A stretch of 64,000 bases of DNA from Selenomonas ruminantium subsp. ruminantium ATCC 12561 (GTDB taxonomy: Bacteria; Bacillota; Negativicutes; Selenomonadales; Selenomonadaceae), in NCBI RefSeq assembly GCF_000424065.1, contig NZ_AUJE01000020.1:1-64000 (forward strand), given 5' to 3'. The notes under the pieces were generated by a model. It searched no databases. It worked only from the letters and a program-made list of their open reading frames with translations, and was not told where the DNA came from. The translations under genes and the position numbers were made by a program. The stretch's first letter is position 1; every line of letters begins with the position of its first letter. Shown here piece after piece: positions 6,147 through 54,824 of the stretch.

Positions 6147-7373
6147 TTAGCGGATAAATATCGGTGATTGCTGAAAATCGTTGCGGGGCGATTTTTTTTC
6201 GCAGGTCAGCTGGCGCAGTTCCGTAGCCAGCGTGTCCAGCCGTAACATTTGTTCCAAAGGCGTGAGGTCTGTTTGTACTTCGCGCCTTTTTGTGGTGGTC
6301 AGGTATTGGCTGGTTTTGGTAATCAAGGGGAGGGAACTTTGGGCCTTTATCTCCCGCAGAATCGTTTTGCCCTGAGGGCTTACGGCCAGCAGACGGGCGT
6401 AGAGGGGGCCTGTCTGGTCAAATAAGGCAATGCTGTCCTTATCTATGTTCATTAAGAGATAAAGCAGAGTGCGGGCAATGCGGCTGGCGGGATAGCGTTT
6501 AGTCGTGACAGCCTGAATTAGCTCCTGCCAGTTGTCAGCTGTTTTTGCGCAGTCAAGGATACGGTTTTCCAGCCCTTCATTGATGCCGTAGATGTTCTGC
6601 AGGCGGGGAAGGTTACTGGTCAAAAGTTTGGCCTGCAGGGGCAGATAGAGCCGGTTCATTTTGGGGAGCTGACTGGTCAAATTTTGACTGGTCAATTCCT
6701 GGCTGGCTGGTGGCATAACGGCTTTCAAGTCAGATAGGTTTTCCCTGCGGTATAAGGCATGCCGGATGGCGGTGGCGCTCGCAAGGTTTCCGTTGATTTT
6801 TTCTTCATGATAGCCTGCGCCCTGACGGGGAATAAGCAACGGGCGGATATCGGAGCTTAGCAGGCGCAGACTGCGCAGGTATTCGATGGCCAAAATATTA
6901 TTGGGCTGTTTAATCAGCGCAGTGATTTCCGTGTCTAAATCCAGTGCTGCACTGATGGCCTGTGCATAGGAAAGGCCGCTGGCAATATGGGCATGGAGTT
7001 TTTCCTGGAAGGCTTTATCGTCCAGCTGCAGGGCAATGTTTTGCAATATGGACAGGTCAGCGCATTCTGCACCAAAGGCCAGCTGATTGACAATGCCCAG
7101 CCGGTTTAATAAGGTCACTCCGCCGCGGGCAAAGTCCTGAGCACTGCGGCAGGCAAAGGCAAAGGGCAGTTCGAGTACGATATCACAACCGCTTTTTACC
7201 GCAGTTTCCGCCCGTTGCCATTTGTCAAAGATTGCAGCCTCCCCGCGTTGGGTAAAACTGCCGCTCATGACGGCGATAATCAGGGACTCGTCCTGTGCTT
7301 TTATTTTTTTGATTTGGTAAAGATGCCCATTGTGAAAGGGATTATATTCGGCAATAATGCCCGTGACGTTCAT
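6147..7373 (-). CDS. tmcAL: tRNA(Met) cytidine acetate ligase
   Basis: A 408-residue protein of the YlbM/DUF795 nucleotidyltransferase family. TmcAL uses ATP and acetate to make N4-acetylcytidine at the wobble position of elongator tRNA(Met). The N-terminus MNVTGIIAEYNPFHNGHLYQ holds the HxGH-like nucleotide-binding motif; MSGSFTQRGE and LELPFAFACRSAQDFA follow. The start at 7373 is set by GGAGG (complement of 7382-7386); an in-frame extension upstream lacks family similarity. Odd point: residues around LTSQNLTSQL in the middle are encoded by a TGACNNGTCA repeat cluster. It diverges from mnmA, another tRNA-modifying gene. Confidence 0.9.
   Translation of the reverse strand: MNVTGIIAEYNPFHNGHLYQIKKIKAQDESLIIAVMSGSFTQRGEAAIFDKWQRAETAVKSGCDIVLELPFAFACRSAQDFARGGVTLLNRLGIVNQLAFGAECADLSILQNIALQLDDKAFQEKLHAHIASGLSYAQAISAALDLDTEITALIKQPNNILAIEYLRSLRLLSSDIRPLLIPRQGAGYHEEKINGNLASATAIRHALYRRENLSDLKAVMPPASQELTSQNLTSQLPKMNRLYLPLQAKLLTSNLPRLQNIYGINEGLENRILDCAKTADNWQELIQAVTTKRYPASRIARTLLYLLMNIDKDSIALFDQTGPLYARLLAVSPQGKTILREIKAQSSLPLITKTSQYLTTTKRREVQTDLTPLEQMLRLDTLATELRQLTCEKKSPRNDFQQSPIFIR
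6670..6695. repeat. TGACNNGTCA repeat cluster in tmcAL
   Basis: Two TGACTGGTCA palindromes (6670-6679 and 6685-6694) are spaced 15 bp apart. A third near-copy, TACTGGTCA, is at 6614-6622. On the coding strand each reads as Leu-Thr-Ser-Gln. Confidence 0.7.
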
Positions 7374-7434
7374 ATTCCTGCCTCCGTAATCGTATTGATT
7401 CCAGTTTAACATGGTTTGCAATCGTAGAAAAGTA

Positions 7435-7463
7435 TTGAGCCATAGCCGTAAATATGTTATGGT
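7435..7463 (+). promoter_or_regulatory. Probable mnmA promoter
   Basis: TTGAGC (7435-7440), a 17-base spacer and TATGGT (7458-7463) lie about 50 bases before the mnmA start. The match is moderate. Confidence 0.45.
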
Positions 7464-7514
7464 AGTTAAATATAAACAGAGTACAGCTATAGGCATTAAG
7501 AGGTGGATGCTATT

Positions 7515-8603
7515 TTGGATAAAAAGACAGTAGCCGTGGCGATGAGCGGCGGTGTGGACAGTTCTCTGACAGCGGCCTTGCTGGCCGAGCAGGGATATAA
7601 GGTAATCGGCATTACCATGCTGCTGACGGAGGAAGGCCGCAGTGAAACGGTCAATGTGGCGGCAGGTGAAGAACCGGACTGTGTGCGGGATGCCAAGAAA
7701 GTGGCAGCAGCTTTGGGCATTGAACATCATACGGTGGATTTTCGCAAAGAATTTCAAGCAAATGTTATTGACTATTTCCTGAGCGAATATGCCAAGGGGC
7801 GTACGCCGAATCCCTGCGTGATGTGCAATCCGTCCATGAAATTCGGCCTGTTGCTGGATAAGGCCAGAGAATTAGGTGCAGACTTTTTAGCCACGGGTCA
7901 TTATGCCCGCATTGGTCAGCTGGAAAACGGCCGTTATGTGGTGAAAAAAGGTCTGGACGAGCATAAAGACCAGTCCTATGCTTTGCATCGTTTGCCGCAA
8001 ACGTCCTTGCAGCATATTCTGTTGCCATTGGGGGATATGACTAAGGAGCATGTGCGGGAATTGGCGGAGAAGATGGATTTGCCAGTGGCGCATAAAGCCG
8101 AAAGTCAGGAAATCTGCTTTGTGCCCCATGATGATTACAAGGCATTTTTACAAAAGCACCGGCCCAAGTGCTTGCGCAAGGGCAATATCGTCAACGATGA
8201 AGGAAAAGTGCTGGGCAGGCATAACGGCGTGCCACTTTATACCATTGGCCAGCGCAAGGGGCTGGGCATTGCGGCACCGGAACCACTCTATGTGCATAAG
8301 CTCGATATGCAGCACAATGAAGTGGTCGTGGGCGGCAACACTTCCGTCTTTGCCAAAGGGCTTTTGGCGAGTGATGCCAACTGGATTGCCATTGATAAAT
8401 TGGAGGACGGTATGGAATTTGGCGCCAAAATCCGCTATGGCAAGCGTGAGGCGCAGGCAAGGCTCTCTATGCAGGCAGATGGTCTGCTTAAAGTGGAATT
8501 TGCTGAACCACAGCGGGCGGTTACGCCAGGACAGTTTGTGGTATTCTATGATGATGATGTACTCGTGGGCGGCGCCATGATTGAGCAGGCTATTAATGAC
8601 TGA
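7515..8603 (+). CDS. mnmA: tRNA-specific 2-thiouridylase
   Basis: A 362-residue enzyme that activates U34 of Lys, Glu and Gln tRNAs with ATP and replaces the 2-oxygen by sulfur. The PP-loop SGGVDSS is near residues 11-17, the first catalytic cysteine is in NPCVMCNP (about 101), ATGHYAR follows, and the second catalytic cysteine is in ESQEICFV (about 200). The C-terminal beta-barrel is complete. AGAGGTGG at 7499-7506 favours TTG at 7515 (8 bases away) over the GTG at 7503, which overlaps the binding site. Length is normal for the family. Confidence 0.95.
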   Translation: MDKKTVAVAMSGGVDSSLTAALLAEQGYKVIGITMLLTEEGRSETVNVAAGEEPDCVRDAKKVAAALGIEHHTVDFRKEFQANVIDYFLSEYAKGRTPNPCVMCNPSMKFGLLLDKARELGADFLATGHYARIGQLENGRYVVKKGLDEHKDQSYALHRLPQTSLQHILLPLGDMTKEHVRELAEKMDLPVAHKAESQEICFVPHDDYKAFLQKHRPKCLRKGNIVNDEGKVLGRHNGVPLYTIGQRKGLGIAAPEPLYVHKLDMQHNEVVVGGNTSVFAKGLLASDANWIAIDKLEDGMEFGAKIRYGKREAQARLSMQADGLLKVEFAEPQRAVTPGQFVVFYDDDVLVGGAMIEQAIND

Positions 8604-17952: not shown

Positions 17953-19158
17953 ATGGCTGTCCATTCGGTAAGTGATGTCAACCGCTATTTGAAGGACCTG
18001 CTGGCAGGGGAACCTTTGCTGCAGGGAATTTCGGTACGTGGAGAAATTTCCAACTTCAAACAATACCCTTCCGGGCATTGCTATTTTACCTTGAAGGATA
18101 CAAATTCGGCACTCAAATGCGTGATGTTCCGCAGTCGGGCGCAGTATCTGCGTTTTTTGCCGCAGAATGGCATGCAGGTGGTGGCTGGTGGCAGCATTGC
18201 GGTCTATGAGCGCGATGGCGTCTATCAGCTTTATGTGGATAGTCTGCTACCGGAAGGCACCGGCGATTTGGCGCTGGCTTTTGAACAGCTCAAGGAAAAA
18301 CTGGCGGCTGAAGGGCTTTTTGACCCCGCAAGGAAACAGCCCTTGCCAGCGTTTCCAAAAAAGATTGGCGTGGTGACGAGCTCTGCCGGTGCCGTACTGC
18401 GCGATATTTATCGTGTTTCCAAGCGGCGCTGGCCGGGAATTCAGCTGGTTCTCTATCCCGTGCAGGTACAGGGGGAAGGGGCCGCTGAGCAGATTGCCCG
18501 CGGCATAGATTTCTTTGCTGAGGAATATGCTGTAGATGTCATCATTGCTGGCCGGGGCGGCGGCTCGATGGAAGATTTATGGGCCTTCAATGAGGAGCCT
18601 GTGGTGCGGGCCATTGCGGCCTGTCCTGTGCCGCTGATTTCGGCGGTCGGGCATGAAACGGACTTTACGTTGGCGGATTTTGCAGCAGATGTGCGGGCGG
18701 CAACGCCTTCGCAGGCGGCTGAACTGGCTGTACCTGACCGGTCAGAAGTTATGCGTCAGGTAGAAAATCTGACCGGTCAAATGACTCGTCAAGTGCAGCG
18801 TGAGCTTGCCCTGCGCCGTCAGCGGTTGGAAGGGCTGTTGAACAGCCGTGTAATGCGGGACCCGCAGAGCATGCTTGTTGAGCGGCGCCAACGGCTGGAT
18901 TTCCTGCTGGCAGGTTTGCAGCGTACGGCCAAGGCGGAATTACAGGGTAAACAGCACAAGCTGGGCCTCATCTTAAACCGTTTGGCGGCCATTAATCCTG
19001 CTGCGGTTTTGGGCCGTGGTTATGGGATGGTCACCAAGCAGGATAAGCTCGTGAGCAGTATCCAGACTGTGGAGATTGATGATGAATTGCAGCTGACCTT
19101 TACGGACGGCCGTGTTCAGGCAAAGGTGCTGGCAAAGATAGGGAAGGGTGACGGATAA
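17953..19158 (+). CDS. xseA: Exodeoxyribonuclease VII large subunit
   Basis: A 401-residue subunit with an N-terminal OB-fold (SVRGEISNFKQYPSGHCYFTLKD) and a catalytic domain containing VVTSSAGAVLRDI, AGRGGGSMEDLWAFNEE and ISAVGHETDFTLADFAADVRAATPS patterns. With XseB it degrades single-stranded DNA processively from both ends. The long helical region after residue 250 is the XseB-binding coiled coil; here two exact TGACCGGTCA palindromes and a TGACTCGTCA encode LTGQ and MTRQ. Its TAA shares one base with the xseB ATG. Confidence 0.95.
   Translation: MAVHSVSDVNRYLKDLLAGEPLLQGISVRGEISNFKQYPSGHCYFTLKDTNSALKCVMFRSRAQYLRFLPQNGMQVVAGGSIAVYERDGVYQLYVDSLLPEGTGDLALAFEQLKEKLAAEGLFDPARKQPLPAFPKKIGVVTSSAGAVLRDIYRVSKRRWPGIQLVLYPVQVQGEGAAEQIARGIDFFAEEYAVDVIIAGRGGGSMEDLWAFNEEPVVRAIAACPVPLISAVGHETDFTLADFAADVRAATPSQAAELAVPDRSEVMRQVENLTGQMTRQVQRELALRRQRLEGLLNSRVMRDPQSMLVERRQRLDFLLAGLQRTAKAELQGKQHKLGLILNRLAAINPAAVLGRGYGMVTKQDKLVSSIQTVEIDDELQLTFTDGRVQAKVLAKIGKGDG
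18735..18791. repeat. TGACNNGTCA repeat cluster in xseA
   Basis: TGACCGGTCA at 18735-18744 and 18770-18779, and TGACTCGTCA at 18782-18791, with an isolated GCGTCA between. The last two are 12 bp apart. They lie in the coiled-coil coding region and read Leu-Thr-Gly-Gln and Met-Thr-Arg-Gln. Confidence 0.7.
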
Positions 19159-32514: not shown

Positions 32515-34005
32515 ATGGAACTTTATTATATACTTGGGCTGCCGCTGCTCTTTGCAGTGGTGGCGGTCACAGGGCTGCTGGGGCTAAAGCTCCTGCACGT
32601 TGCCGACAGGCTGACGGCCACGGTGGTCTTTGGTCTGATTCTGCACATGGCGGCAGAATTTGCCATGCATCCCCATGAGCCAATCCGGCAGGGATTTTTC
32701 TATGTGGATTCGCTGAGCATTTGGATGCTCGTCATTGTCGGTGCGCTGTACCTGGCTTTTGCCTGGACCAGCAAAGCGTACCTGGAACGCGATACCAATA
32801 TCCGTTATGGATACTTGCGCCGCTTTACCCATTTGGAAGGACGTTTCTATGCGTTGTCGCATCTTTTCGTCTGGACGATGATGCTGGTGGTGACGGTGGA
32901 CAGCTTAGGCCTGATGTGGGTAACCATTGAGGCGACCACCCTGGTATCGGCACTGCTCGTAGCATTTAAATTCACCCGTACTTCGCTGGAAGCGGCCTGG
33001 AAATACGTTATGGTCTGCACCGTGGGCATCTGTCTGGCTCTTTTGGGTACGATTATTCTCTACTACGGTCAGCTGCAAGCTATGGGCGATGTGCTGCCGC
33101 TGAACTGGGAATTTATGAAAGTTCATGCCGATATGCTCGACCATGATGTGGCAAAACTCGCGTTTTGCTTCCTCTTTGTGGGCTATGGCACGAAAATCGG
33201 CCTGGCACCTATGCATGCCTGGCTGCCGGATGCTCATTCGGAAGCACCGGCCCTCACGAGCGGTCTGCTTTCCGGTGCGCTCTGTATCTGTGCGCTCTAT
33301 GTGCTTCTGCGCGCTACGGCGATTGTGATGCCCGTGGTGGGGCTTGATTTCATCAGCTCCATGTATGTGGGCTTTGGCCTGCTGACCATTGCATTGGCTG
33401 TGCCATTCGTGGTGGTGCAGCGTGATGTCAAGCGTATGCTCGCCTATTCCTCGATGGAAAACTTCGGCCTGCTGGCCGCAGGTTTCGGCCTCTTTATGCC
33501 GTTGGCGGCAGAGGCGTCCCTTTTGCATATGTTCAACCATGCCTTGGTTAAATACATGCTGTTCTATACGGCCGGTACCATTATGGAAACCTATGCGACG
33601 AAAAATATGATGCGCATTCATGGCATGATGCAGCAGGCACCCAAAACGGCGATGTTCTGGCTGCTCGGCATTGTGGGCATCTTGGGGATGCCACCGATGG
33701 GGGTATTTTTCAGTAAGTTCTACATCATTGCCAGCTTCTTCCAGGCACATCATCCGTATTTAGGGATTTTGGCGCTCGTGCTGCTGGCCGGTATGCTGAT
33801 TGGTATTCTTTACCATGCCATGCGCATGCTGGGCGGCAAACCGACCCGCAAGGCGGCTGGTGAACTGATGGGCAAACTGGACAGCTGTGTATTGCTGCTG
33901 ATGTTGGCCATCAGCGGCGTAGTAAGTGCCTTTGCTTATGAGCTTCCCTATGTGGGAACGCTTTTGACTGAGGCGGCAAAAGTGGTCATGGGAGGTGTAC
34001 AGTAA
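32515..34005 (+). CDS. hyfF: Hydrogenase-4-like antiporter subunit F (NuoN/HyfF family)
   Basis: A 496-residue second antiporter-like subunit. Key segments: DSLGLMWVTIEATTLVSALL (with the helix 5 glutamate), YGTKIGLAPMHAWLPDAHSEAPALTSGLLSG (Lys, His, and the broken-helix region) and QRDVKRMLAYSSMENFGLL. It would provide an additional ion-translocating unit. Its TAA shares one base with the start of hyfG. Confidence 0.92.
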   Translation: MELYYILGLPLLFAVVAVTGLLGLKLLHVADRLTATVVFGLILHMAAEFAMHPHEPIRQGFFYVDSLSIWMLVIVGALYLAFAWTSKAYLERDTNIRYGYLRRFTHLEGRFYALSHLFVWTMMLVVTVDSLGLMWVTIEATTLVSALLVAFKFTRTSLEAAWKYVMVCTVGICLALLGTIILYYGQLQAMGDVLPLNWEFMKVHADMLDHDVAKLAFCFLFVGYGTKIGLAPMHAWLPDAHSEAPALTSGLLSGALCICALYVLLRATAIVMPVVGLDFISSMYVGFGLLTIALAVPFVVVQRDVKRMLAYSSMENFGLLAAGFGLFMPLAAEASLLHMFNHALVKYMLFYTAGTIMETYATKNMMRIHGMMQQAPKTAMFWLLGIVGILGMPPMGVFFSKFYIIASFFQAHHPYLGILALVLLAGMLIGILYHAMRMLGGKPTRKAAGELMGKLDSCVLLLMLAISGVVSAFAYELPYVGTLLTEAAKVVMGGVQ

Positions 34006-35537
34006 TGGCGGATTGGTCTTTGAAAGTCGTAAAACCGGAAAACTTCCGCGGCACGGCCAATATCCTGTCCAACGGTGGTAAAAATCCGTTGACGGCGATG
34101 TTTGGCCGGGATGAAACGGAAAATCCCGAAGTAAAGGGGTATGCGATTTACGCTGTTTTTGAAAATCTGAGCGAGCATAAAATGGAGGCAGTTAAGGCTG
34201 TCTTCGGTGAAGGGGAGTCCCTGTGCTATGAATCCCTGACCAGTGTGATTCCTGCCGCCGTTTGGTACGAACGTGAGATTCAGGATATGTTCGGCATTGT
34301 GCCGCAGAATCATCCCGACCCGCGCCCGCTTGTCCTGCACGATACCTTCCCAGAGGGCTTTTATCCTCTGCGTAAGACTGTGGCTAAAGATGCTGACGTG
34401 CATGGCAGCCGCCGTATGGATATGAGTGTGGCCAAGGGCGAAGGCGTTTATGAAGTGCCGGTTGGTCCGATTCATGCGGGCATTATCGAACCGGGGCACT
34501 TCCGCTTCAGTCAGGCCGGTGAATCCATGCTGCAGCTGGACGCCCGTCTGTTCTATACCCATCGTGGTTTGGAAAAAATCATGGAAGGCAAGACGCCCGA
34601 AGAAGCTCTGCCCATTGTCGAGCGTATCTGCGGTGCCTGCACCATTGCTAATACCTGGAGCTTCTGTCAGGCGGTGGAAAAAATCGCTGGCGTAAAGGTT
34701 CCGCGGCGGGCGGAAATCATTCGCACGCTGCTGATGGAAATTGAGCGCATCACCAACCATGTGGGCGACCTGGGCAATATTCCCGCCGGTGTGGGCTTTA
34801 ATCCGGCCATCAGCCTTGGCGGCCGTACGAAGGAAATGCTTATGCGCCTGCAGGAACGCATTGCGGGCAACCGCTTCCTGCGCGGTGTAATCGTTCCCGG
34901 CGGCGTGCGTCAGGATATTGACAGCGCCTTGCTCAACGATATCGCCGATATTATGGATAAAACCAAGGCCAATGTCAGCGATTTAAGCGAAATGTTTGCC
35001 CAACAGGCCAACTTCCAGAACCGCGTGCGCACCACGGGCGTTGTGCGCAAAAATACCGCCGTGGATTTGGCGATGGTCGGTGTCGGCGCAAGAGCCTCGG
35101 GTTTTGCCCATGACAGCCGCAAGGATTTTGCTTATGGCCTTTATCCGGAACTCGACTTTAAGCTCGTGACGGAAAAGACCGGCGATGTGGCCGCAAGACT
35201 GGCTCTGCGCATTGCGGAATTAAAAGAATCCTTTGCTCTTGTGCAGCAGCTTTGCAATCTGCTGAAGGCGGACAAGTCAAATGACCCGTCAAATCTGACC
35301 GTTCAAATTGACTGGTCAACTGTAAGTGGTGAGGATTGGGGCCTTAGCGAATCGGCACGGGGCAGCAACTTCCAGTTTGTGGCCCTGCAGGATGGCAAAA
35401 TTGACCGCATCTTCGTCCGCAGTGCCTCCTATCCGAACTGGCCGGCTGTGACCATTGCCGTGCAGGGAGATATCATTCCGGACTTTCCGTTGATTAACAA
35501 GAGTTTTGAACTGTGTTATGCGTGCATTGACCGCTAA
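34005..35537 (+). CDS. hyfG: Group-4-hydrogenase-like large subunit with altered metal-site motifs (HyfG/NuoCD-like)
   Basis: A 510-residue fusion of a NuoC-like domain (to about 125) and a NuoD/hydrogenase large-subunit domain (from about 145, GPIHAGIIEPGHFRF). Motif L1 is RICGAC at 207-212, followed by TIAN where hydrogenases usually have a His four residues after the Cys. Motif L2 is ELCYACIDR (C504, C507), with EL in place of the usual DP. All four Ni-Fe cysteines are thus kept, but second-sphere residues differ. The protein ends three residues after the last Cys, so there is no C-terminal peptide for a maturation protease. A TGACNNGTCA cluster encodes residues about 422-438. Confidence 0.88.
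   Translation: MADWSLKVVKPENFRGTANILSNGGKNPLTAMFGRDETENPEVKGYAIYAVFENLSEHKMEAVKAVFGEGESLCYESLTSVIPAAVWYEREIQDMFGIVPQNHPDPRPLVLHDTFPEGFYPLRKTVAKDADVHGSRRMDMSVAKGEGVYEVPVGPIHAGIIEPGHFRFSQAGESMLQLDARLFYTHRGLEKIMEGKTPEEALPIVERICGACTIANTWSFCQAVEKIAGVKVPRRAEIIRTLLMEIERITNHVGDLGNIPAGVGFNPAISLGGRTKEMLMRLQERIAGNRFLRGVIVPGGVRQDIDSALLNDIADIMDKTKANVSDLSEMFAQQANFQNRVRTTGVVRKNTAVDLAMVGVGARASGFAHDSRKDFAYGLYPELDFKLVTEKTGDVAARLALRIAELKESFALVQQLCNLLKADKSNDPSNLTVQIDWSTVSGEDWGLSESARGSNFQFVALQDGKIDRIFVRSASYPNWPAVTIAVQGDIIPDFPLINKSFELCYACIDR
35270..35318. repeat. TGACNNGTCA repeat cluster in hyfG
   Basis: GGACAAGTCA (35270-35279), TGACCCGTCA (35282-35291), TGACCGTTCA (35296-35305) and TGACTGGTCA (35309-35318), spaced 12, 14 and 13 bp. 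Two reading frames are used: Asp-x-Ser and Leu-Thr-x-Gln. Confidence 0.75.
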
Positions 35538-40508: not shown

Positions 40509-43064
40509 TTGAATAAGAAGACAGCGGAGCGCAAGACGGCTCCGCGGCGACGTAAGGCTTCCGGCAGGAAAAAAACAACGGTAAATTCTGTCGGCAGCCC
40601 GGAACGCAAATATGAACTTTTAGGTCTGCTATTGGTGGCTGTAAGCCTGATTTCCGTCTGCGGCCTTTGCGGGCTGAATGTTGGTTTTGTGGGAGTTTAC
40701 TTTGCCAAGTGCCTGAACTATATGTTCGGCGTGGGGGCAGTACTTATTTCCCTGCTGATTCTGCTGATTGGCTATCAGTATATCGTCAAGCATCATGGAC
40801 TGGTGTATTCTCCCCGCTTTTTCGGTTTGGGGCTACTATTTGTATCGGTATTGGCAATTTGGCATCACCTGGTGGTGGAGCCGGGAGCGGAGATTCTTCC
40901 GGAAAGCCTGCCACAGGGCGGCGGCCTTTTGGCGGGGGCTTTTTTGCTGATTTTGCGGAAGTTCTTCGGCGTCGATGGCTCGATTATCCTGCTGGGGGCA
41001 GGAGTTATTGGTTCCATATTGTTGTCAACCACCTGGTCACTGGCCAATGGCGTGCGGCGCACGCAGCGAACGGCGGCCAAAAGCGCGGTGGTTACAGGCA
41101 AGGCAATGGCTGTAGCTTACGAAAAAGTGGCCGATGTCAGTGAGCGTGTAGAGGAAAAAGTCGTAGAAAAAGTCAAAGCTTCCTTTTATAATCAGGAGGA
41201 AGATGACCATTTTGCCGAATTGCCGCTGACGGAAGCGGCAGAAAAGCTTACTGCAGAGCCCGTGGCAGAAGAAGTGACAGTAGCAGCAGAACCGGAGGTT
41301 CCGGCAGAGGAAGTGCCGAAATTTACGATTGAGTATGGCAGGCAGGAAGATGATATGGTTGAGCCTGCTGGTACGGAGAAGAGTGGGTTTACGTCAACGG
41401 TTGACCGTTCAAATGACGTGTCAGCCGTGAATAGTCAGCCGGCGATAAATGTGGACCAGCCTAAACCGGTAGCACCTTCGGCCAAGCCGATGAAGGATGC
41501 GGCCAAGCGGACAGCAATGCCCAGTTATGGAGAGATTGCACCAATAAGGCCTGCGGCGGCTATTTTGGATGGTTCAGAACAGACAGTTGAAGCGGCACCG
41601 TCGCCTGTTAAGCCCTATGAACTGCCTAAGGTTACGGAAATTCTCAGCAAGCATGTAAAAACGCAAAATTCGGCACTTGAAAAAGAGATTGCCGAAAATG
41701 CTATGACCTTGCAGCAGACCTTGGCGGATTTTAAGGTCAAGGCGACAATCTTGAATGCCTGCCACGGCCCAGCGGTTACCCGCTATGAGCTGGAGCCTGC
41801 ACCGGGGGTGAAGGTCAGCAAGATTACCAATCTTGCCGACGATATTGCCCTGCGTCTGGCGGCTGCGTCCGTGCGTATCGAGCAGATTCCTGGCAAGAGC
41901 GCCATCGGTATCGAAGTGCCGAACAAGGAGCTCGAAGGTGTACAGCTCCGCGAAGTTTTGGAAAATGCCAAGTTTGACAAAGCAAAATCTAAACTCACGG
42001 TGGGCCTGGGCATGGATATCGGCGGACAGGGCATTTTTGCCGACTTGGGCAAGATGCCGCACCTGTTGGTGGCTGGTGCCACGGGTTCCGGTAAGTCGGT
42101 GTGCATTAACACATTGATTACCAGTATTCTCTTTAAGGCCAAGCCGGATGAAGTAAAATTCATCCTCGTTGACCCCAAGATGGTCGAACTGTCCAATTAT
42201 AACGGCATACCGCATCTAATGGTGCCTGTTGTTACTGATGCCAAGAAAGCGGCTTCGGTGCTCAACTGGTCGGTGCAGGAGATGGAGAAGCGTTACAGCA
42301 AGTTTGCGGAGAAAGGTGTCCGCAATATGCAGGGCTATAACGACAATTTCCCTGAGGATAAGATGCCCGCCATCGTCATCATCATTGACGAGCTTGCGGA
42401 TTTGATGATGGTTGCGCCGCATGATGTAGAAGATGCCATCTGCCGTCTGGCACAGAAGGCGCGTGCGGCAGGCATCCATATGGTGCTGGCTACGCAGCGT
42501 CCTTCCGTTGACGTTATCACGGGTATCATCAAGGCCAATGTGCCTTCACGCATTTCCTTTGCGGTATCCAGCCAGATTGACTCGCGTACCATCCTCGACC
42601 GCAGCGGTGCCGAAAAACTGCTGGGGCGCGGCGATATGCTGTTCTTCCCGATTGGTGAGTCCAAGCCCCGCCGCGTGCAGGGGGCGTTCATCAGTGATGA
42701 TGAAGTAGAAAAACTGTTGGACTTCATCCGCGCCCAAGGTCAGGAAATGGAGCCCAACGAGGAAATCGAAGCCTTTACCCAAAAGGAAATGGCCGAAGCG
42801 GTAGAGGAAGAAAGCGGCAGCAAGGGCGCGCGCAGTGCGCCTAAGACCGATGCCCTGCTGGCTGATGCGGTCAATCTCGTCATGAGTACGGGGCAGGCTT
42901 CGGCATCGAGCATTCAGCGGCGCTTCCATATCGGCTTTACCCGGGCCGGGCGGCTGATTGATACCATGGAAGAGTTAAATATCGTGGGGCCGAATGTCGG
43001 CAGCAAACCACGCGAAATATTGATGACCAGTGATGAAGCATTGGAAGTCCTGGCCAATTTGTAA
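40509..43064 (+). CDS. ftsK: DNA translocase FtsK/SpoIIIE
   Basis: An 851-residue DNA pump for chromosome segregation at the septum. A basic N-terminus ([20 protein letters not shown]) precedes four membrane helices (about 36-190). A variable linker (200-390) follows, rich in Glu, Ala and Pro. The motor has Walker [15 protein letters not shown] and Walker [13 protein letters not shown]; the C-terminal gamma winged helix ([20 protein letters not shown]) recognises KOPS sites. A TGACNNGTCA cluster lies in the linker. GAGGTGAT is 6 bases before the TTG. Confidence 0.95.
41402..41423. repeat. TGACNNGTCA repeat cluster in ftsK
   Basis: TGACCGTTCA (41402-41411) and TGACGTGTCA (41414-41423) are 12 bp apart, with a further ACGTCAA at 41391-41397. 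They encode Asp-Arg-Ser and Asp-Val-Ser in the variable linker. Confidence 0.7.
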
Positions 43065-50518: not shown

Positions 50519-51520
50519 ATGGAAGTAGATGTTACAGAGAAAGCGAAGAATTTTATCCGTTTTGGCTTAATTGGCTTGATTGTGCTCGCAGCTTTGGCGG
50601 GCGGCGGTTTATACCTCTATCAGCACAGCAATCGCGGTTTTGTAGTAAGCGATGCGATGGTGGTAGGCACTGAGTCTGTGATTACCGCTAAAGGTGACGG
50701 CAAGATTACGGAAGTACTGGTGCAGGACGGTGACTATGTGGAAGAAGGCACTGTGATTGCGCGGGTAGAGTCTAAGATTACGCCGGAAGATATCGCCCAG
50801 TTAGAGCAGAATGTGCAGATGGCTCAGCAAAGCTATGCCCAGCTGCAAAAGGGAACAACGGCAGTTACGCAGGCACCGGCAGCGCCAGTAGTGGACAGCG
50901 GTGCCCAGCAACGGGCGGCTAATGCTTATGCCCGCATGCAGCGCATGAATGAACTTTTTAGCATGGGCGCCATCAGCGCGGCTAAGCGCGATGAAGCAGC
51001 TGCTGCGTATGCGGCTGCACAGGCAGCAGCTAATGCTGCTCCTGCCCCAGCTGCTGCGCCGCAGACCACAGTGATTCCAACGAGTCCTGAGGTGCTGAAG
51101 CAGGCAGAATTACAGGTGAAACAGGCAGAGATTGCGCTGGCCAATGCTAAAAACGACCAGCAGGCCACAGAAATTGTGGCAACGGCGAGCGGTGTTATCA
51201 GTTTAGCCGAGGGCCTGGCTGCTGATAGTGAACTCAAGAATGAACAGGAAGTGGCCCGCATTCAGGCCAGCAATGATGCCTGGCTGGAAGCTAAGCTCAC
51301 GGAAAATCAGGCAGCAAAAGTACGTTTGGGTGAGTTTGTCAATTACGAGATTGATGGTCATAAGCTTCAGGGTACAGTGAAGGATATCGCAGCTCCGGAA
51401 AATGACGAGTCAGAATCTGACCAGTCAAAATCCTTGACCATTGTCAAAATATCCCTGCCCGCTGATCCGTCCTTTACCATTAAATCGGGGATGAGCGGAA
51501 GAATCGAATTCAAAGAATAA
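50519..51520 (+). CDS. HlyD-family membrane fusion protein, orphan
   Basis: A 333-residue periplasmic adaptor anchored by one N-terminal helix (RFGLIGLIVLAALAGGGLYLY). A biotinyl-lipoyl-like half follows (TESVITAKGDGKITEVLVQDGDYVEEGTVIARV), then a helical hairpin interrupted by an Ala/Pro-rich stretch (about 165-190) and the second lipoyl half (ATEIVATASGVISLA) with a beta-barrel. No pump or outer-membrane channel gene adjoins. Residues about 295-309 are encoded by a TGACNNGTCA cluster. AGGGGGGAT is 5 bases before the ATG. Confidence 0.85.
   Translation: MEVDVTEKAKNFIRFGLIGLIVLAALAGGGLYLYQHSNRGFVVSDAMVVGTESVITAKGDGKITEVLVQDGDYVEEGTVIARVESKITPEDIAQLEQNVQMAQQSYAQLQKGTTAVTQAPAAPVVDSGAQQRAANAYARMQRMNELFSMGAISAAKRDEAAAAYAAAQAAANAAPAPAAAPQTTVIPTSPEVLKQAELQVKQAEIALANAKNDQQATEIVATASGVISLAEGLAADSELKNEQEVARIQASNDAWLEAKLTENQAAKVRLGEFVNYEIDGHKLQGTVKDIAAPENDESESDQSKSLTIVKISLPADPSFTIKSGMSGRIEFKE
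51403..51446. repeat. TGACNNGTCA repeat cluster in the membrane fusion protein gene
   Basis: TGACGAGTCA (51403-51412), TGACCAGTCA (51418-51427) and the longer TGACCATTGTCA (51435-51446), spaced 15-17 bp. They encode Asp-Glu-Ser, Asp-Gln-Ser and Leu-Thr-Ile-Val. Confidence 0.7.
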
Positions 51521-54788: not shown

Positions 54789-54824
54789 TGACATGTCAAA
54801 TTGACCGGTCAAGCTGATATGTCA
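54789..54824. repeat. TGACNNGTCA repeat cluster between the HD gene and hisG
   Basis: TGACATGTCA (54789-54798), TGACCGGTCA (54802-54811) and TGATATGTCA (54815-54824), spaced 13 bp, with partial copies TGACAA and TTGACT just upstream (54775-54785). This is the only clear cluster outside a gene. Confidence 0.75.

Follow-up and report, generated by a model that had tools for sequence, protein, structure and literature searches.

We analysed a window of 64,000 nucleotides from Selenomonas ruminantium subsp. ruminantium ATCC 12561, in which a short interrupted palindrome, TGACNNGTCA, recurs within and between conserved genes. The word consists of two TGAC half-sites around a 2-bp centre (NN), and is frequently found in a longer form, TTGACNNGTCAA. 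The window holds 12 exact copies; dinucleotide shuffles averaged 0.54, and none of 100 reached 12. An earlier note on this DNA had reported five coding clusters, in the tmcAL-type, xseA, hyfG-type, ftsK and HlyD-type genes. We found all five in correctly identified genes (Table 1). The hyfG array is present, but just two of its units are exact and the other two carry one mismatch each; likewise the ftsK cluster (41402-41423) is present with 41414-41423 as its sole exact unit. The list was also incomplete, as the intergenic array at 54789-54811 had been overlooked.

Table 1. Copies of TGACNNGTCA in the window and the genes that carry them
Feature	Position	Strand	Description
tmcAL-type gene (HIGH_NTase1/TmcAL)	6147-7757	minus	two TGACTGGTCA sites, 6670..6694, 15 bp apart, read LTSQNLTSQ
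xseA (exonuclease VII large subunit)	17953-19158		single site TGACCGGTCA at 18735..18744, phase 2
xseA, second cluster	18770..18791		two sites, 12 bp apart, phase 1, NLTGQMTRQ
hyfG-type gene (Complex1_30kDa+49kDa)	34005-35537		four-unit array, 35270..35318
hyfG array, exact units	35282-35291 and 35309-35318		
hyfG array, one-mismatch units	35270-35279 and 35296-35305		GGACAAGTCA and TGACCGTTCA
ftsK	40509-43064		one exact site, 41414..41423, in the linker that joins the membrane part to the motor part
ftsK, one-mismatch unit	just upstream of 41414..41423		TTGACCGTTCAA
HlyD-type membrane fusion protein gene	50519-51520		two sites, 51403..51427, 15 bp apart
Intergenic pair	54789..54811		13 bp apart, half-sites on flanks, between HD-domain gene and hisG

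Relatives of HyfG assign the window to the Selenomonas ruminantium group. All four units of the hyfG array are exact in the relative SIG242 (L021), and most outgroups lack 18 bp of the array segment in the ortholog comparison. The HlyD-type gene carries one extra unit in G099 and G060, a 15-bp in-frame difference. The intergenic pair lies 11 bp past the stop codon of the HD-domain gene and 18 bp ahead of hisG, and its length varies among relatives.

We counted TGACNNGTCA in whole genomes, and found 227 copies in the genome of the window and 51 of the backward-read pattern, placing the word well above background. Enrichment was seen in 14 of the 16 counted genomes of the genus Selenomonas, with 198-434 copies each (for example 434, 403 and 421, against 33, 20 and 18 for the control). 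The two remaining members, G087 (50 vs 44) and G109 (41 vs 30), are at background level, and form long branches beside one of the two enriched clades in an FtsK tree. In a class-wide sample of 301 Negativicutes genomes, the standouts were the same 14 genus members and G022 (215 vs 16), and nearly all of the 285 genomes outside the genus are at background. G022 (L135-L152) belongs to another genus of the same family. It contains about 870 copies of TGACGTCA in 2.0 Mb, compared with 32 for the control, and this word shows a graded excess of near-misses, indicating that the main word there has no spacer; it is a distinct word that uses the same half-site. We found no prior description of TGACNNGTCA in the open-access papers searched.

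The arrangement of the word in genes follows the reading frame. Among coding sites in 464 kb of the window genome, with open reading frames defined by length only, 19 are in phase 2 (xxT GAC NNG TCA), 12 in phase 1 (xTG ACN NGT CAx) and none in phase 0, which would create a TGA stop. This agrees with the earlier claim that only two frames are used. Coding copies exceed those in synonymous-codon shuffles in each of three genomes (31 vs 4.2, 66 vs 10.3 and 37 vs 3.8). Site density per kb is about 2-4 times higher in noncoding than in coding DNA, as estimated from sampled stretches and the listed positions of some NN classes. An artefact of chance or codon usage was ruled out by dinucleotide and synonymous shuffles, reversed-pattern controls and phase-matched spacings. 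Taken together, we consider it highly probable that a host-maintained, DNA-level recognition word of some kind is present.

The counts of exact and near-miss copies bear on how the word arises. Five genomes contributed 1.42 Mb, in which exact TGAC-N2-GTCA occurs 225 times, and the same half-sites at the phase-matched gaps of 5, 8, 11 and 14 bp occur 13, 23, 12 and 20 times (about 17). One-mismatch copies number 369 at gap 2 and 362, 337, 354 and 358 at the other gaps (about 353). Thus, in these counts, which pool related genomes, the excess amounts to about 208 exact copies, with essentially no one-mismatch excess. An apparent depletion of near-misses, 0.65 of the independence expectation, was set aside because the ratio is equal at the other phase-matched gaps and is therefore a baseline. 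An equilibrium that favours the exact word alone predicts the observed counts, with a strength of ln 13, about 2.6. For the Neisseria DUS, a related argument gave 2Nes of about 4, with 1,892 DUS against 815 DUS-1 (PMC2397512).

The earlier note had preferred a dispersed palindromic element, comparable to Rickettsia palindromic elements, with in-frame insertion into coding sites that tolerate it. If inserted copies were neutral, their decay would be expected to yield a comparably large class of near-misses, so the lack of such an excess argues against them and already largely refutes this reading. Ortholog comparisons, which again pool related genomes, gave evidence on both sides. An indel within 12 bp of the site was found in 35% of the coding-site comparisons, compared with 4% for other palindromes (38% vs 4% for site comparisons overall). 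This association would fit insertion, and it bears out statistically the earlier observation that the clusters fall in variable segments. Some orthologs also differ by whole in-frame units of 12-18 bp, such as the 15 bp in the HlyD-type gene and 12 bp extra in G043 at another gene. Many site differences come without an indel, however. Among 146 comparisons in which the ortholog lacks the site, 79 are free of indels within 12 bp; a single core base makes the difference in 44 of these 79. The LeuB protein here reads VDKS where the five best-matching solved LeuB sequences read VDKA, and the serine codon completes TGACAAGTCA; this site was gained when a conserved Ala was replaced by Ser. With the freely varying NN and the background-level small plasmids described below, an inserting and decaying element is very improbable. 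The evidence is better matched by the other option in the earlier note, a motif for protein binding or methylation.

The same comparisons describe how the word itself changes. In orthologs 85-93% identical, the eight core bases differ at a rate of 0.073, the flanks at 0.110 and NN at 0.198, a contrast to be read as a trend rather than a rate since a single genome served to pick the sites and the rows are partly related. NN varies freely, even among units within one array.

The usual distance between adjacent sites is 12-16 bp, in line with the clustering that had been reported. In noncoding pairs, the NN of the two copies are complementary, wobble counted, in 14 of 22 cases against 5.1 expected, and noncoding copies often lie within 30 bp past a stop codon, several of them followed by a T run. 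This suggests that paired intergenic copies have been co-opted as putative terminator-like hairpins, as DUS and USS pairs have (PMC1852404, PMC3630211). Complementary NN were found in 5 of 26 coding pairs, equal to the 5.1 expected. An RNA hairpin as the general cause was therefore rejected, as it fits the noncoding pairs but fails for the coding ones; the coding copies are DNA-level features.

Two further observations concern noncoding copies. In G016, the word forms near-identical hairpins at both ends of a stretch of about 0.7 kb (L118:11297 and 12000) and of another of about 0.9 kb (L124:11250 and 12131). At L111:7891, L189:16335, L191:16330 and L121:1187, a TTGAC half lies about 17 bp ahead of a TATAAT-like hexamer and could act as a -35 element.

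To describe the distribution over replicons, we used G099 and G121, the latter comprising a chromosome and nine smaller replicons. Eight sampled small and mid-size plasmids of G121 carry 4 sites in 187 kb, which is background, and its 285-kb megaplasmid carries 25 sites in 180 kb (about 5e-5 by a hand-calculated binomial). Sites also adjoin probable accessory genes, such as the HepT-like/nucleotidyltransferase cluster of G016. On the two closed chromosomes, the third around the origin is depleted, with 9 of 71 and 8 of 46 clusters among the NN classes listed, the G099 origin being taken from sign changes of the GC skew and that of G121 assumed at the contig start. The depletion is also seen in the noncoding DNA of the sample. 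Restriction to the terminus of the MatP/matS type was not found, as sites are spread over the other two thirds of the chromosome and the megaplasmid.

These results are relevant to a second reading, in which the copies are bound by a protein that associates with the nucleoid or organises the chromosome. Such a protein, for instance one of the ribbon-helix-helix type acting like MetJ (tandem boxes) or MatP (matS), would bind cooperatively along arrays with an origin-distal preference. A palindrome with 4-bp half-sites, coding arrays at 12-16 bp without hairpin pairing, the depleted origin third and a megaplasmid that, like the chromosome, is rich in sites are what such a protein would lead one to expect. 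It is harder to reconcile with the near-miss counts, because binding sites of this kind usually show a graded near-miss class and none is seen here. Moreover, the sites are not limited to a terminus domain, DNA compaction alone does not predict small plasmids at background level, and no candidate protein was found. We regard this reading as rather unlikely, yet as the chief rival of the explanation that we favour below.

We also searched for the protein that might read the word. Among ten genes beside intergenic sites, including transporters, SurE, NFACT, HisG, an amidase and a PDDEXK transposase, no regulator was found that could be an autoregulated DNA-binding protein. Viral contigs L220, L221, L222, L224, L225, L226, L228 and L231 (44-63% GC) carry TTGACNNGTCAA arrays of similar spacing in intergenic or repeat regions; many of the units are degenerate, and some arrays lie near packaging-type genes. 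When phage arrays, on contigs of 35-65% GC, were used to look for the binder, no common neighbouring gene was seen. A different palindrome, GACA-N4-TGTC, is over-represented in the sample of the window's genome (G000; window and L095-L114), with 25 copies against 4.3 expected.

The search for methyltransferases bears on a third reading, a methylation-linked iterated palindrome as proposed for HIP1. Here a methyltransferase would read TGACNNGTCA, and methyl-directed repair or selection would create and maintain the word. An all-or-none interrupted palindrome is typical of type II enzymes, and cyanobacterial HIP1 provides a precedent (PMC4390886). Among the families PF01555, PF02086 and PF00145, however, none is common to all enriched genomes, the search having been confined to these three. 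In G080 and in G114, both of them enriched and complete, two of these families are missing. Since this reading also leaves arrays and unit indels unexplained, we judge it improbable.

Our leading, though tentative, explanation, to which we give a little less than an even chance, is that TGACNNGTCA is an uptake-type self tag of the DNA-uptake-sequence kind; both the reader protein and the uptake role are inferred. In the proposed mechanism, a symmetric (dimeric) protein would read TGACNNGTCA/TTGACNNGTCAA as double-stranded DNA; its demand for the two TGAC half-sites would be all-or-none, and it would disregard the centre. New copies would arise through point substitution and small in-frame indels at permissive positions, and would be retained by weak selection or biased recombination. 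Intergenic neighbours right after stop codons would be co-opted as terminator-like hairpins. Word-bearing DNA would be preferentially taken up and recombined, so that the word would build up in DNA of long residence but not in plasmids that come and go.

Consistent with an uptake tag are the confinement of the word to one genus (14 of the 16 genomes counted), the excess over synonymous shuffles, and the excess of exact copies without one of near-misses. The same holds for a core that differs less than its flanks, with NN differing more, and for the indel-prone permissive positions, the hairpin pairing of intergenic copies, the contrast of small plasmids with the dense megaplasmid and the variant word TGACGTCA in a related genus. 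Origin-near depletion and sites beside probable accessory genes in G016 speak against it. ComEC was found in 22 of 22 genus genomes, which suits an uptake role, but these include the word-free G087 and G109, so its presence does not discriminate. Competence loss as the reason that these two lack the word was rejected, given that both have ComEC.

If this is correct in full, no diderm Firmicute would have had a self-recognition word of the uptake type before. The word would be a palindrome that a dimer reads, able to form arrays and terminators, and would have a sister-genus dialect, TGACGTCA, made by removal of the 2-bp spacer. We put this fuller proposal forward as possible but doubtful.

Few recognition words span a whole genome, and they are informative in that each leads to a protein reading the entire chromosome (Chi/RecBCD, DUS/ComP, HIP/methyltransferase). 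Since TGACNNGTCA alters residues in core metabolic and division genes, recognition at the DNA level shapes proteins here. G087 and G109 are natural negative controls for tracing the reader protein, and, with such word-free very close relatives, and with a sister genus that uses a second word, the protein should be findable by comparing gene presence. A true uptake tag would also aid genetic work on a major rumen bacterium.

Compared with known systems, the word shares with Rickettsia palindromic elements an in-frame position at tolerant coding sites. It differs in being a 10-bp word with gains by substitution and background levels in small plasmids, and no series of insertion copies decaying into divergent ones was found. 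The MatP site matS is GTGACRNYGTCAC, with TGAC half-sites and a spacer of 3. The likeness lies in TGAC half-sites round a short spacer and in fewer sites near the origin. The Selenomonas spacer is 2, not 3, and the word has 200-430 copies, arrays, and a distribution over most of the chromosome and the megaplasmid. HIP1 (GCGATCGC) is likewise a palindrome specific to its lineage that occurs both inside and outside coding DNA, and some relatives have other words; the Selenomonas word is interrupted, arrayed and less dense, with no conserved methyltransferase among the three families tested.

The closest comparison is with the DNA uptake sequences of Neisseriaceae (DUS) and Pasteurellaceae (USS). 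Neither DUS nor USS are known to be palindromic, and DUS are not known to form tandem arrays in coding DNA. Their copy number is usually more than 1,000. The Selenomonas word is palindromic with a free 2-bp centre, has 200-430 copies rather than thousands, and shows tandem coding arrays and origin depletion. Its symmetry and lower copy number also speak for a chromosome-binding protein. In other respects the resemblance to an uptake tag is broad: a short word is over-represented genome-wide in one lineage, near-misses are few, and copies sit at permissive positions, within genes too, where one frame is closed by TGA. Close pairs occur in terminators (a putative role for the Selenomonas pairs), and relatives carry variant words. 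As to recently acquired DNA, the small plasmids here are at background and the megaplasmid is dense, and in G016 sites adjoin probable accessory genes. Work on the Neisseria DUS has described a stringent word, permissive placement, pairs at terminators, dialects and a lack of copies in genes of recent acquisition (PMC2397512, PMC3630211, PMC1852404), and the parallels support an uptake-type tag in Selenomonas.
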